From NCBI RefSeq assembly GCF_001435995.1, contig NZ_AYYQ01000031.1:1-64000 (forward strand): DNA of 64,000 nucleotides, read 5' to 3'. Shown here piece after piece: positions 97 through 7,326 of the stretch (the first letter of the stretch is position 1; every line of letters begins with the position of its first letter). The translations under genes were made by a program, and so were the position numbers. The notes under the pieces are model-generated. The model was not told the DNA's origin. It did not search any database and was given only the letters and a program-made list of their open reading frames with translations. The DNA is from Apilactobacillus ozensis DSM 23829 = JCM 17196 (GTDB lineage: Bacteria; Bacillota; Bacilli; Lactobacillales; Lactobacillaceae).

Positions 97-2598
97 TTAT
101 TTAATTTCATTAAAAGAAATTCTAGCCCCTACTTCTTGGGAGCTATCACCATATTTTTTATTAATACGTAACTGTTTGAATGGAAAATTAGCTTGCATAT
201 TAAATACTTTGCTAACTTTTAAATTGTTAATATTATTTTTCAATTCCAATTCGTCTAACTTATTAGTATAAAATTTTACTAACTCACGAATCCAATTAAT
301 ACCAGTAGCATGACTCATGAAAATAGTCTCTGTTAATCTAAGTGGACGAATTCCTACGTATTCAGACATTCCATCTTCTTTATTAAATAAAATCTGCACT
401 AAGCCAATCCAATTCGACTTAGAAATGCAATTTTTGGATATTTTGATGTCTTTAGCCAGTTGATCATCATTAATAAAGAATGGTATCTGATAGTTGGTAA
501 TAAAATTAATATCACCATTGGATTTATTATTAATTAACTTTTCAGTAGTGATAAAGTAACTACTTTGCTGTGTAACAAAAAAGTTAAGAGCATATGTCAC
601 CTTTTTAGGTAACATTACACCAGTTTCTTGGTCTGGTGGTAGTATTTGGACATTTAAATTTTGATTCTTTTTAATTTCTTTCATCAAGTAGTGACGATTT
701 CCCGGAACGAACACTCTAACTGGTTTTTCAGTTCTGATAATATTTAAAATGTCACCTAGCTGAATTGGCTCGATATAACGTTTATCGCTCAGATTAGGAT
801 TTAGAGATAATGAATTTGGATTATTATTTATAATAATAGTTTTATATCCCACTTCTCTTAATTGAATTAAAATTTCTGCGGTATAATAATCAGCTGCCGT
901 ATTAGGGCCCAATTTATTACCCCCACGACCAATTACTAAAGCCGTTTTACTTGAGAATTGACTAGATTCATTTTCAATTTCATAACTACTATAAAAAGAA
1001 AGAATATTTTCGTCGAATTCACCAGCTGAAGGCTCAATCATTTTGTACGTTGGAACAGACTTTGCTTGCATAGATAATTTCTTAATATAATCAATTGGTA
1101 CATCCCAAGTTTCAGACATCATCCCATCTCCAAAACCATTTTGATGAGCTGCTTCAATTGTTTCTAATTTTAAGGGATGATTAATGATTTTTTCTTCAGT
1201 AATTAAAAGTTGCTTTAATTTATAAAAATAAAATTGGTCGATTTTAGTTAATTCAGTTAAATCTTCAACTTGATACCCTCGACGAATAGCTTCAATTAAA
1301 ACTAAAAATCGATTTATTTGGGGATGAATCAATTGACTAATTAATTCATCATTAGAAATCTCACGCATGCTAGGTAAAATATCTTTAGGACTAAACTGCG
1401 AACTACGCAACGCTTTAAGCATTGCTTCTTCTACACTACGCCCGACACCAATAGTCGAACCAACTGACTTCATGATAGTATTTAAATGTTCATCCGCATT
1501 TTTTACATTTTCAAATGGCCAAACAGGCATTTTAACCACAACATGGTCAATTGTAGGCTCCATAATTGCCGTTAAACGGTGGTATTCTGCTGGTAATTCA
1601 ACTTTCCTTAAATTAACGCCTAAATACAACAGTGTGGTTACATATTGTAAGGGGTATCCGGTAGCTCTTTCGACCAATGCCATATTACGATTATAATTTA
1701 AATTTATTTTAGTAATGAAATAATTACCGTCACTAGAGTCTAAAGCAAATTCTACATGACAAGACCCCACTACTTGTAAAAATTCCATTATTTTAAACGT
1801 AGCATTACGAAGAGCCTGATACTCAGGGTCAGTTAATGTTTGAATTGGTGCTACGACAATGGAATCGCCTGAATGAATACCAACTGGGTCAATATCTTCT
1901 AAACCAGATATCAGTATCTTAGTATCTTCACTGTCACGCACACCAACCATTTCAATTTGTTTATATCCTACAACACTTTTTTCAATAGCACATTTATTGA
2001 CAGATGAATTATTAAATCCATCAACCAAAGCATCGGATAATGATTCTGAATTTTGACATATTTGTCTATGGGTATTTTCATGTGCAGCAATTGACTTAAC
2101 AATAACTGGAAACCCAATTTCTCTAACAATGGAGAAAGCTTCATGTTCAGAAGAAACAATATCAGATGGAACCACTGGTTCATTAACAGTCCTTATCACT
2201 TTTTTTATATGGTATGGATTATTAATCATTTTAAGTGCTTTATCATTCATACCCAGCAGCTGAACGTTATGATCCTTCAAAAAACCGCTTGTAACCAGGC
2301 TTTGGGCTACGTTAATGGCCTTTAACCCACCTAATGTTGCAATGATAGCATCAGGCTTTACGTTTTCTATAATTTTTTTAACATTTTTGACATTAACTTC
2401 AATTGTATATACATATTTATTTTTAATAGCACTAGCAGTTAATGAGAAGGGATTATTATCAATAATAAAAGTTTTAATATGATGCTTTTGAAAAAGTAAG
2501 GCCGTTTCAAATGATGCATTATCTAATTCGTTTTCTTGTCCAATTTTAGAAGGACCACCGCCTAAAATTAATACTTTTTTTATATCTTTATTTAACAT
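97..2598 (-). CDS. Diverged, shortened carbamoyl-phosphate synthase large-subunit-like protein (probable pseudoenzyme)
   Basis: 833 aa, against about 1,060 for normal CarB. The first half is clearly CarB: an N-terminal subdomain (GGGPSKIG at 13-20), GIHSGDSIVVAP at 240-251 and ATGYP near 312. However, the ATP-lid loop normally containing TMGGSGGG is replaced by AAHENTHR (171-178), and the catalytic E-x-N-P-R is K-x-N-L-N (297-301). The second half (from 551) keeps only the N-terminal subdomain and a remnant. The second ATP-grasp core and the C-terminal MGS-like allosteric domain are missing, so about 280 residues stand where about 520 are expected. The frame is uninterrupted. The ribosome binding site AAAGGAGATAA overlaps the end of the carA-like gene, which suggests translational coupling. 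Known CarB makes carbamoyl phosphate from bicarbonate, ammonia and 2 ATP; I infer this protein cannot. Another role, perhaps regulatory, is possible. The homology is certain; the function is unknown. Confidence 0.85.
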   Translation of the reverse strand: MLNKDIKKVLILGGGPSKIGQENELDNASFETALLFQKHHIKTFIIDNNPFSLTASAIKNKYVYTIEVNVKNVKKIIENVKPDAIIATLGGLKAINVAQSLVTSGFLKDHNVQLLGMNDKALKMINNPYHIKKVIRTVNEPVVPSDIVSSEHEAFSIVREIGFPVIVKSIAAHENTHRQICQNSESLSDALVDGFNNSSVNKCAIEKSVVGYKQIEMVGVRDSEDTKILISGLEDIDPVGIHSGDSIVVAPIQTLTDPEYQALRNATFKIMEFLQVVGSCHVEFALDSSDGNYFITKINLNYNRNMALVERATGYPLQYVTTLLYLGVNLRKVELPAEYHRLTAIMEPTIDHVVVKMPVWPFENVKNADEHLNTIMKSVGSTIGVGRSVEEAMLKALRSSQFSPKDILPSMREISNDELISQLIHPQINRFLVLIEAIRRGYQVEDLTELTKIDQFYFYKLKQLLITEEKIINHPLKLETIEAAHQNGFGDGMMSETWDVPIDYIKKLSMQAKSVPTYKMIEPSAGEFDENILSFYSSYEIENESSQFSSKTALVIGRGGNKLGPNTAADYYTAEILIQLREVGYKTIIINNNPNSLSLNPNLSDKRYIEPIQLGDILNIIRTEKPVRVFVPGNRHYLMKEIKKNQNLNVQILPPDQETGVMLPKKVTYALNFFVTQQSSYFITTEKLINNKSNGDINFITNYQIPFFINDDQLAKDIKISKNCISKSNWIGLVQILFNKEDGMSEYVGIRPLRLTETIFMSHATGINWIRELVKFYTNKLDELELKNNINNLKVSKVFNMQANFPFKQLRINKKYGDSSQEVGARISFNEIK

Positions 2599-2605
2599 TT
2601 TAGAG

Positions 2606-3679
2606 TTATCTCCTTTGTGAGCTAACGTTTTCTAAAAATTCATCGTATAAATCAACACTATCAATAGGACCAGGACCACCATCTGGCGAAAACTGAATAG
2701 AAAACGAAGGATAATCACGATGTCTAATACCTTGCACAGTTTTATTAATCAAATCAACATATGTCACAATCAGATTATCATGACTAATTGATTTAGGGTC
2801 AACTGCATATCCTTGACTTTGTGAAGCGTAAATCACTTTATTTGTAATGATTTGTTTAATGGGATGATTACTTCCATGATGTTCAATGTCCATTTGATAA
2901 ATTTTGGCACCATTAGCCAAGGCAAATAATTCATGGCCTAACCCCATACCAAAAATAGGAACACTTTTTTGAATTGTACGAATCATATCTAACACTGATT
3001 CCGGCAAATTAAGTGGTGAACCTGGCCCAGTAGATAGTACAATTCCATCAGGATCTAAGTCCATAATTTCTTTACTGCTAGTATTCCAAGGCATAACTGT
3101 AACATTACAATGACGTTCTGAAAGTTGTCTTAAAATGCTATATTTTAGGCCAAAGTCAATGACAATAATATTATATCCATCCCCAGGATTAGGAAAAGGA
3201 GCTTTTGTAGAAACTTGATCTACTTGTTGATTAGTTAAAACTGAAGCGTTTAACTGGTCATAAGCGTGTTCATCATCCATATCTACAATGCTACCTTTCA
3301 TGGAGCCTTTGATTCTAATGTGACGAGCTAATTCTCTAGTATCAATCCCAGCAATTCCAGGAATGTTATTTTGCTTCAAAAACTTATCGATTGACAAGTT
3401 TCCTAAACGATTAGTAGAAATATTAGAATATTCTTTTGCAATTACGCCTTTAGCGTTAGTTACGATTGATTCAAAGCTCTTATGATTAATACCAGTATTT
3501 CCAATTGATGGCTGAGTAAAAACAATAATTTGATTGTGGTATATCTGGTTAGTAATAACCTCTTGATATCCTAACATATTTGAATTTATGATTACTTCTC
3601 CTGTTGTAGTAGCTTCTGAACCAAAGCTTACACCTTTATATGAAGCGCCATCTTCTAATATTAAATAACGAGTTGTCAT
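2606..3679 (-). CDS. Diverged carbamoyl-phosphate synthase small-subunit-like protein lacking the glutaminase triad
   Basis: 357 aa, near the usual CarA length. The N-terminal CarA domain (about 1-150, including MLGYQEV near 35 and GNTGIN) and a C-terminal class I glutamine amidotransferase fold (about 168-350) are recognisable. The nucleophile elbow, normally GICLGHQ, reads GMGLGHE: the catalytic Cys is Gly246 (codon at 2942-2944, GGG). The other two triad residues, His and Glu in QFHPE, are Ser331 and Asp333 (QFSPD). All three catalytic residues are therefore gone while the surrounding fold motifs (STGPGSP, GSNHPI, PGPID) remain. An AAGGAG site precedes the ATG. It lies 42 bases after pyrR and directly before the carB-like gene. 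I infer it cannot hydrolyse glutamine. It may still bind its partner or a ligand. Confidence 0.87.
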   Translation of the reverse strand: MTTRYLILEDGASYKGVSFGSEATTTGEVIINSNMLGYQEVITNQIYHNQIIVFTQPSIGNTGINHKSFESIVTNAKGVIAKEYSNISTNRLGNLSIDKFLKQNNIPGIAGIDTRELARHIRIKGSMKGSIVDMDDEHAYDQLNASVLTNQQVDQVSTKAPFPNPGDGYNIIVIDFGLKYSILRQLSERHCNVTVMPWNTSSKEIMDLDPDGIVLSTGPGSPLNLPESVLDMIRTIQKSVPIFGMGLGHELFALANGAKIYQMDIEHHGSNHPIKQIITNKVIYASQSQGYAVDPKSISHDNLIVTYVDLINKTVQGIRHRDYPSFSIQFSPDGGPGPIDSVDLYDEFLENVSSQRR

Positions 3680-3721
3680 TACTATTCAGCCTATCTCCTT
3701 AATGAATTTAAATTGATAACT

Positions 3722-5190
<1,469 letters not shown>

Positions 5191-5206: not shown

Positions 5207-5659
5207 CTAGTTATTTTCTTCTTTTATAAATCCAATAAAAATAAATACAAAGCCTACCGTCAAACAAGCATCCGCAAAGTTAAAAATTGGAAAATTAATA
5301 AAGTTTAGTTGAAACATGTCTACTACAAAGCTATGGAAGATTCGGTCAATAAAATTACCAATTGTGCCAGCTAAAACTATTGATAAGCCTAGTTGGAGCA
5401 TTAAATTATGCTTCGATTTAATCCAAAAATAGATAATCGCTACGATTGCTAAAACACTGATAACATAAAAAAACACTTGTTTACCTTCTAATATGCTCCA
5501 AGCAGCTCCAGTATTTTGTAAATACGTTAGTGAAACGCCTGGTATAAAAGAAATCGATGTTCCTAGATCTATATTGTTAACTATCCAAAATTTAATCAAC
5601 TGGTCAATTCCAATTAAAGCTATACATAAAAAAATTAACAAAATTGGCATTAAATTCAA
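5207..5659 (-). CDS. lspA: Lipoprotein signal peptidase (signal peptidase II)
   Basis: 150 aa with four hydrophobic segments (about 5-25, 62-82, 88-105, 125-146), as in LspA. It cleaves prolipoprotein signal peptides before the lipid-modified cysteine in the membrane. The NTGAAWSILEG motif (49-59) and the two catalytic aspartates, in VVDM (Asp114) and NFAD (Asp130), are present. It lies 8 bases after fhs and is presumably in the same transcript. Confidence 0.96.
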   Translation of the reverse strand: MNLMPILLIFLCIALIGIDQLIKFWIVNNIDLGTSISFIPGVSLTYLQNTGAAWSILEGKQVFFYVISVLAIVAIIYFWIKSKHNLMLQLGLSIVLAGTIGNFIDRIFHSFVVDMFQLNFINFPIFNFADACLTVGFVFIFIGFIKEENN

Positions 5660-5667
5660 TTCTCCTC

Positions 5668-7326
5668 TTAAAATAAACCAGTTATTTTACCATCATTATC
5701 GATATCCATATCTAACGCAGCAGGATGACTTGGTAAACCAGGCATAGTTAATACTTTACCTGTCAATGCAACAATGAATCCAGCCCCTAATTTAGGCTGA
5801 AATTCTCTAACATGAATTGTAAAGTCATTAGGAGCACCTAATTTTTTAGCATCATCAGTAAATGAATATTGATTTTTAGCTACACAAATTGGCAATTTAT
5901 TCCAGCCACGTTTGCGATAATTTTTTAGTTGACGTTGGGCTTTACCACTTAATTCAACTTTATTACCACCATAAATGTTAGTAACAATTTTAGTTAGCTT
6001 GTCCAAAATATCATCATCTTGATTATAAAGAGGCTTGAACTCAGCTTTTTGATCACAAGTATTTACTAGTTCACTAGCCAATTCAGTTGCACCAGCGCCA
6101 CCCTTAGCCCAAACATCAGCTAAGATGCCTTTGACGTTATGTTCAGATATATAATCTTTTAAGGCTTGTATTTCTGATGGAGTATCGCTAACAAATTTAT
6201 TGATAGCTACTACTACTGGCTTTCCATATTGTTTCATATTTTCAATATGACGACCTAAGTTATCAGCACCTTTTTTCAATGCTGTAACATTTTCTTTATC
6301 TAGTTCGTCTTTGCTTACGCCACCATTTAATTTTAAAGCTCTGACAGTTGCTACGATGACAACACTATCAGGCATTTTACCAATTTTAGGTGCGGTAATG
6401 TCTAAGAATTTTTCACCACCTAAATCAGCCCCAAAACCAGCTTCAGTAATAGTATAATCAGCTGATTTTAATGCTGCTTTAGTTGCTAAAATACTATTAC
6501 AGCCATGAGCAATGTTGGCAAATGGTCCACCATGTACAAAAGCAGGTGTATGTTCCAAGGTCTGTACTAAGTTAGGTTTTAAGGCATCTTTTAATAGTAA
6601 AGCTAAAGCACCAGTCACACCTAAATCTTTAACGGTTACCGGTTGTTTATCGTAGGTATAGCCTATTAAAATTTTACTAATTCTTTGTTTTAAATCTGAT
6701 AAATTTTTACTTAGGCATAAAATAGCCATTAATTCACTAGCAACCGTAATATCAAAGCCATCTTGTCTAGGAGTACCTGAGGTTCTGCCACCTAATCCAA
6801 TGACTACTTGTCTTAGTTCACGGTCATTTATATCTAACACTCTTTTCCAAGTGATTTGACGAGGATCTAAATTTAGTTTGTTACCATGTTGAATGTGATT
6901 ATCAATTAAAGCAGATAAGGTATTATGTGCCTCGGTCAGAGCTGAAAAATCTCCTGTAAAGAAAAGATTAATGTCTTCCATTGGTGCAACTTGAGCATAT
7001 CCACCACCAGTTGCGCCACCTTTAATACCCATTACTGGTCCTAAGGAAGGTTCTCTTAAGGCAATTGCACATTTTTTATTAATATGTTTAAATGCATCCC
7101 CCAAACCAATTGTTAAAGTTGTTTTACCCTCACCAGCTGCAGTTGGATTAATTGAGGTAACTAGAATCAATTTATGATTAGCTGGAATGTCAGCATCACT
7201 ATAATCAACTTTAGCTTTATAGTTACCATATTGTTCCAAATCTTCATTTTCAATTCCAATTTGATTAGCAACCTTAGTTATATGTTCGAGATTAGCATTT
7301 TGTGAAATTTCAATATCTGTTTTCAT
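5668..7326 (-). CDS. fhs: Formate-tetrahydrofolate ligase
   Basis: 552 aa, the normal length. It makes 10-formyl-THF from formate, THF and ATP, feeding purine synthesis and initiator tRNA formylation (fmt is at 53517). A P-loop-like GEGKTT is near 66-71, and the [33 protein letters not shown] and [10 protein letters not shown] blocks are all intact. It follows the ebsA-like gene by 29 bases and leads into lspA. Confidence 0.97.

Follow-up and report, generated by a model that had tools for sequence, protein, structure and literature searches.

A review names Cys-269 and His-353 as essential in CarA, the glutaminase subunit of Escherichia coli carbamoyl-phosphate synthase (CPSase) (PMC6245113). 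Vertebrate CPS1 carries Ser where the catalytic Cys would be and works with free ammonia (PMC4655335). L. plantarum PyrR2 is listed as lp_1782 in PMC7911632, and a citing sentence reports that PyrR2 mediates a response of the pyr operon to inorganic carbon (PMC3582564). Here we analyze a pair of carA- and carB-like genes, carA2 and carB2, that lies beside a pyrR gene in Apilactobacillus ozensis. Among open-licence papers, judged by title or the start of the abstract, we found no description of this pair as inactive. The operon name used in the main PyrR2 paper (Arsene-Ploetze 2006), which reportedly carries "Aa1Ab1", suggests that its authors were aware of a second copy.

The carA2-carB2 locus and its glutaminase residues

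The window, a 64,000-nucleotide stretch that begins at the first position of an A. ozensis contig, comes from a genome of 1.48 Mb in 36 contigs. Open reading frames at its left end give the minus-strand gene order fhs-lspA-rluD-pyrR-carA2-carB2. The carA2 gene (2606..3679, minus strand) encodes a CarA-like pseudo-glutaminase of 357 aa, and carB2 (97..2598, minus strand) encodes a CarB-like pseudo-synthase of 833 aa that lacks the C-terminal domain. As the first-pass annotation of this DNA had it, the carA2 frame is open over 357 codons and is preceded by a good ribosome-binding site, AAGGAG (3695..3700, minus strand); carB2 has the same site (2610..2615, minus strand), both being read from the sequence. 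Upstream, all on the minus strand, lie pyrR (3722..4255), which matches the NCBIfam PyrR model and whose place on the carA2-adjacent branch of the PyrR tree suggests the PyrR2 type, and the syntenic markers rluD (4276..5190), lspA (5207..5659) and fhs (5668..7326). A second, canonical set, pyrB-pyrC-carA-carB-pyrD, is encoded ~70 kb away in the same genome; the annotation had mentioned neither this operon nor the truncation and catalytic losses of CarB2.

CarA2 contains both the CPSase small-chain domain (PF00988, 144.9 bits) and the class-I GATase domain (PF00117, 128 bits), and it scores above the cut-offs of both CarA equivalog models, TIGR01368 included. Alignment to E. coli CarA shows that the two essential residues are absent: catalytic Cys269 corresponds to Gly246 (codon GGG, 2942..2944, minus strand) and catalytic His353 to Ser331 (TCG, 2687..2689, minus strand). 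Near the nucleophile, Gln273 is replaced by Glu250 (GAA, 2930..2932, minus strand), and Glu355 aligns with Asp333 (GAT, 2681..2683, minus strand). The annotation had counted all three residues of the catalytic triad as replaced. Loss of the Cys and His stands, but loss of the third residue is rejected, since Asp at 355 is the normal state in intact CarAs: all 23 wide-locus CarA rows with both Cys and His have it, the working copy of the same genome among them, as do 13/13 CarA loci examined in other families of the order. The triad losses are therefore two, not three. The predicted structure of CarA2 is poor (pLDDT 64), too low for detail.

Distribution of the pair and the state of CarB2

In a tree of 80 CarA rows, CarA2 falls in a main clade of 47 (SH-aLRT 99), every row of which has Gly at the position of Cys269; the clade was defined on the whole CarA sequence, with nine near-duplicate genus rows left out of the CarA trees. 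Main-clade loci come from 21 Lactobacillaceae genera and usually have the order lspA-rluD-pyrR-carA2-carB2, with carB2 adjoining carA2 in 56/56. Gly269 is present in all 56 main-clade wide loci, Glu273 in 53 and His353 in none. Across all 88 wide-locus CarA rows, 64 have Gly269 and lack His353, of which 56 belong to the main clade and 8 come from outlying genera, where they occupy this same locus; the remaining 24 keep Cys, 23 of these with His. Because the same change recurs across many assemblies and genera, we rejected sequencing error or local decay as its source. As to one origin or two, an AU test, run without two very long rows (L151, L152), did not reject a single group made up of the main clade and the outlying Cys-to-Gly rows (p 0.279).

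CarA2 is present in 16/16 Apilactobacillus genomes at 78-100% identity, always with Gly and Ser at the two sites. The nearest named record, among 80 named loci that are the best 80 of 219, is that of A. xinyiensis F575-4, whose CarA2 is 98% identical. The scan behind these 80 loci started from the peptide GLGHELFA plus another pattern, so their invariant Gly269 and Glu273 (80/80) hold partly by construction; Asp355 is also found in all of them, and position 353 is Phe in 51 and Ser in 29. Counts free of motif seeding are those from whole-genome protein searches, and they matter for CarB2 position 169, where Lys occurs in 79/79 named loci yet is not general (Arg in 13 and Lys in 43 of the 56 main-clade rows, against Arg169 of E. 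coli CarB). Beyond the family, 13/13 loci read out of a draw of 118 genomes from the order were canonical.

Several other CPSase genes in the family depart from the standard form. In Secundilactobacillus similis JCM 2765 (L241:3746-5996), carB2 is in three overlapping pieces, through an assembly error or a broken gene. Locus L129 (genome G047, genus g33) encodes another CPSase pair, possibly a separate degraded one, in which Cys is kept, His is replaced by Leu and Glu by Asn, and CarB is full-length with several site losses. A third CarA-CarB (CarB 1019 aa) lies beside an OTCase-like gene at L156 and L157 (G005 and G004), with further copies in G006 and G008. At L149 (G043), the frame for canonical CarB is in two parts, of 853 and 207 aa.

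CarB2 has 833 aa compared with ~1060 for full CarB. It scores 531.6 bits against TIGR01369, whose cut-off is 1027, with its best stretch running over positions 3-636 of the model's 1052, and its score against NF003671 (514.4 bits) is below that model's cut-off of 599. Main-clade CarB2 lengths range from 813 to 901, the shortest ending at a contig end. The oligomerisation domain (PF02787) is retained, and the predicted structure (pLDDT 81, pTM 0.85) superimposes on residues 1-923 of E. coli CarB with Z 38.4 and rmsd 3.3 over 814 residues at 26% identity.

We compared CarB2 site residues in E. coli numbering. Glu299, a metal ligand, is Lys in 51 and Arg in 5 of the 56 main-clade rows (Lys297 in the window; codon 1708..1710, minus strand), and none of the 56 keeps Arg303, the counterpart of a residue that contacts bicarbonate in biotin carboxylase. 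Arg129 is mostly Pro, with Arg remaining in L136. His243 is kept in 52/56 and Gly241 in 55/56, and at position 215 Glu stands in 40 rows and Gln in the other 16, these being the 16 Apilactobacillus rows, the window included. At site 2, six positions between 675 and 754 have no aligned residue in 56/56. CarB2 therefore departs from CarB both in its length and in its two ATP-grasp sites and, on its sequence, looks catalytically dead as well, with residues gone from both ATP sites. The first-pass conclusion that normal CPSase activity is beyond the pair, drawn from CarA2, appears all the stronger with the sites of CarB2 lost too.

The precedent of CPS1, with Ser for Cys, raises the alternative of an ammonia-dependent CPSase, and a few outlying same-locus relatives do keep a full-length CarB. 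Outlying genera show intermediate states: L137 has a full-length CarB with most site residues, and L163 has site 1 intact and site 2 lost. In the main clade, however, the site-2 gaps and the Glu299 to Lys/Arg replacement are found in 56/56 CarB2 rows, and the pair is kept in genomes without aspartate carbamoyltransferase (ATCase). This alternative is very unlikely, and we rejected it on the loss of synthase-site residues in CarB2.

It is also unlikely that a remodelled CarB2 pocket carries out a new reaction and that CarA2 serves it as a structural subunit. CarB2 does retain the first ATP-grasp fold and several pocket residues, and Lys297 and Arg178 of CarB2 and Glu250 of CarA2 are highly conserved over 136 rows, in which genomes overlap, 80 rows come from the motif-seeded scan and the "pseudo" label of wide-locus CarAs was set by the absence of Cys269 itself. 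Replacement of Glu299 and Arg303 in 56/56 rows and of Arg129 in nearly all should nevertheless abolish ATP-Mg chemistry, and the second site is partly deleted.

Selection, retention and the link to PyrR

In genera g12, g13, g25, g30 and g31, an intact rluD-pyrR-pyrB-pyrC-carA-carB operon occupies the same place. CarA2 is 51-56% identical to the CarAs of these operons versus 40% to the canonical CarA of its own genome. The pair is probably a remnant of the ancestral lspA-rluD-pyrR-...-carA-carB operon, its carA-carB having stayed in place once a working pyr operon stood elsewhere.

Within Apilactobacillus, the dN/dS of CarA2 is 0.00-0.085 (NG86, own script; listed pairs with dS under 1.3), and that of CarB2 reaches 0.14 in the same pairs. 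Over 91 pairs with both proteins, mean identity is 88.3% for CarA2 versus 77.2% for canonical CarA; for comparison, it is 77.5% for CarB2, 85.7% for PyrR (78 pairs) and 85.7% for RluD. The frames of the pair are open in nearly all listed family matches. The dN/dS comparison proposed with the first-pass annotation thus gave purifying selection and not a ratio near 1. A decaying pseudogene pair, not yet erased, could explain the single broken cases, carB2 of S. similis in three pieces and carB2 of genome G297 with a stop, but is extremely unlikely: with CarA2 dN/dS at 0.00-0.09, identity above that of working CarA and frames open nearly everywhere among the listed matches, the selection and open-frame results refute it.

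To follow the pair through loss of the pathway, we used ATCase (TIGR00670), which is over cut-off in 331/397 family genomes. The 66 genomes without an over-cut-off ATCase (45 in main-clade genera, 21 in others) comprise 29 without any ATCase match, 9 of them named by elimination, and 37 with weaker matches only. CarB2 is retained in 45/45 of the ATCase-less main-clade genomes, 5 of which are <90% complete or >5% contaminated, and in 41 there is no further CarB at 1e-60. Of the remaining four, G071 and G265 have an intact second CarB, and G387 and G297 have broken pieces; CarB2 itself is broken by a stop in G297 and runs off the contig in G265. Gly269 was read directly in 31/45, CarA2 in the other 14 being assigned from match strength, and the order pyrR-carA2-carB2 was read in 20/20 loci taken from the 45 genomes. 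The one-contig Apilactobacillus genome G003 has no PyrB, canonical CarA or CarB and keeps pyrR-carA2-carB2. As read from these genomes, the pair outlives working CPSase and ATCase in many lactic acid bacteria. As it is kept after the working enzyme and pathway are lost, it has probably turned to another use, most likely as a regulator. Together, the low dN/dS, the all-Gly clade and retention without ATCase or another CarB strongly support the earlier suggestion of repurposing over random decay.

The retained PF02787 domain and the match of the CarB2 fold to CarB would also fit a scaffold or dominant regulator that joins a working CarA-CarB oligomer. This is quite unlikely, since 41/45 ATCase-less main-clade genomes, G003 included, have no other CarB at 1e-60 for it to join; a partner of working CPSase is largely refuted as the general role.

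PyrR is present in 45/45 ATCase-less main-clade genomes and directly upstream of the pair in 44 (the exception is G279). In a PyrR tree from which nine loci were left out and in which some genomes are present twice, the 53 PyrRs encoded directly before carA2, that of the window included, are all set off by a single branch (support 78) from pyrB-adjacent PyrRs, and 0/500 shuffles gave a value as low. At that support of only 78, the linked PyrR groups with the PyrR of the Lactiplantibacillus carA2 locus, the putative PyrR2; the PyrRs of the outlying loci L137 and L163, whose pyrR genes are not directly adjacent to carA2, fall outside it. Both PyrR types occur in 8/8 genomes of genus g38, probably Lactiplantibacillus, where the carA2 and pyrB loci have different PyrRs, that of carA2 lying upstream of it; for this reason lp_1782 (PyrR2) is probably the carA2-linked PyrR of L. 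plantarum. A structural or regulatory subunit beside PyrR, as the first reading of the locus had proposed, is plausible given this linkage and the single branch that holds most linked PyrRs.

Genera g3 and g6 differ in having no pyrR at the locus of the pair in 6/6 wide loci. In the CarA tree these six rows group together as one clade, a single lineage in two genera, and PyrR is encoded elsewhere in 12/12 of their genomes tested, with one ~8-12 kb from the pair in G141 and G090. As this lineage keeps the pair with no pyrR at the locus, the linked PyrR cannot be the pair's only partner. The same lineage favours a pair that serves some other process independently of PyrR, its place beside pyrR being inherited synteny, as does the order rluD-pyrR-...-carA-carB in intact operons of other genera. 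Against such independence stand PyrR in all 45 ATCase-less genomes, directly upstream in 44, and the separate branch formed by most linked PyrRs; we regard it as improbable.

Searches for a PyrR-binding RNA element at the locus of the pair found none in L047, L058 and L105 (E 0.5) and none at gathering threshold at L163. In L137 one element scored over threshold, just upstream of pyrR. Weaker matches, below the gathering threshold of 54 bits, precede pyrB in L153 (12164-12303, minus strand; 39.8 bits) and L158 (4142-4260, plus strand; 43.2 bits), which suggests an action in trans on the pyr operon by the PyrR encoded beside carA2. In two outlying genera, an NCS2 uracil-permease-like gene lies between pyrR and carA2 (L137:4000-5331, plus strand; L163:7164-8537, minus strand), above the NCS2 cut-off and just below that of the uracil permease model, and this gene ties the locus of the pair to uracil uptake. 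In Apilactobacillus micheneri Hlig3 (L052/L187, G007), pyrR is split over two frames, and carA2 and carB2 are intact.

Proposed role and relation to known systems

An enzyme fold that is under selection without its catalytic residues is what the sequences and the CarB2 model give, and on these grounds CarA2-CarB2 is a pseudoenzyme pair under strong selection. With catalysis apparently lost, we infer that the pair acts as a regulatory pseudoenzyme. Our main reading, to which we assign a probability of about 0.5, is that an old, dead CPSase pair has been kept as a non-enzymatic complex, which works with PyrR as a sensor or regulatory partner. The ligand of CarA2-CarB2 would be a small molecule; an adenine nucleotide bound without magnesium is one candidate, proposed because His243 and Gly241 mostly stay and the metal ligand is now Lys or Arg. 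The complex would hand the ligand signal to PyrR, which would then set pyrimidine synthesis or uracil uptake. Counting against the ligand pocket, it is not fully kept, Glu215 being Gln in Apilactobacillus. Direct sensing of bicarbonate by the pair is possible and doubtful, because Arg303 is lost in 56/56. More tentatively, and somewhat improbably, the whole dead CPSase could be the sensor of a PyrR2-CarA2-CarB2 unit that reads bicarbonate-linked or adenylate status and acts on pyrimidine genes or uracil uptake. If so, the unit could be the missing input for the inorganic-carbon response of PyrR2 and for the CO2 dependence of lactobacilli.

Lactobacilli of these genera are used in food and silage. 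As CarA2 passes the CarA equivalog cut-offs, automatic annotation may credit the inactive protein with carbamoyl-phosphate synthesis across lactobacilli genera. A two-subunit enzyme retained whole as a pseudoenzyme after loss of its pathway would be a clear case of change from enzyme to regulator, and the pair could be tested as an explanation of the inorganic-carbon response of PyrR2.

E. coli CarAB has the same two-subunit domain plan as the pair, the CarB2 model following CarB residues 1-923 and CarA2 having both CarA domains. It differs from the pair in that CarA2 is without the catalytic Cys and His, and CarB2 has degraded sites and no C-terminal domain. The canonical pyr-operon CarA-CarB of Lactobacillaceae is homologous to the pair, with intact operons at the same place in other genera, but Cys, His, a full CarB and intact sites are kept there. 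The glutaminase domain of CPS1 likewise lacks the catalytic Cys (Ser294 in human), whereas CPS1 phosphorylates bicarbonate and carbamate (PMC4655335) and CarB2 has lost residues of both sites. L. plantarum PyrR2 (lp_1782) resembles the PyrR of this locus in its probable linkage to carA2, and the inorganic-carbon role is reported, in the citing sentence, for PyrR2 and not for the pair.
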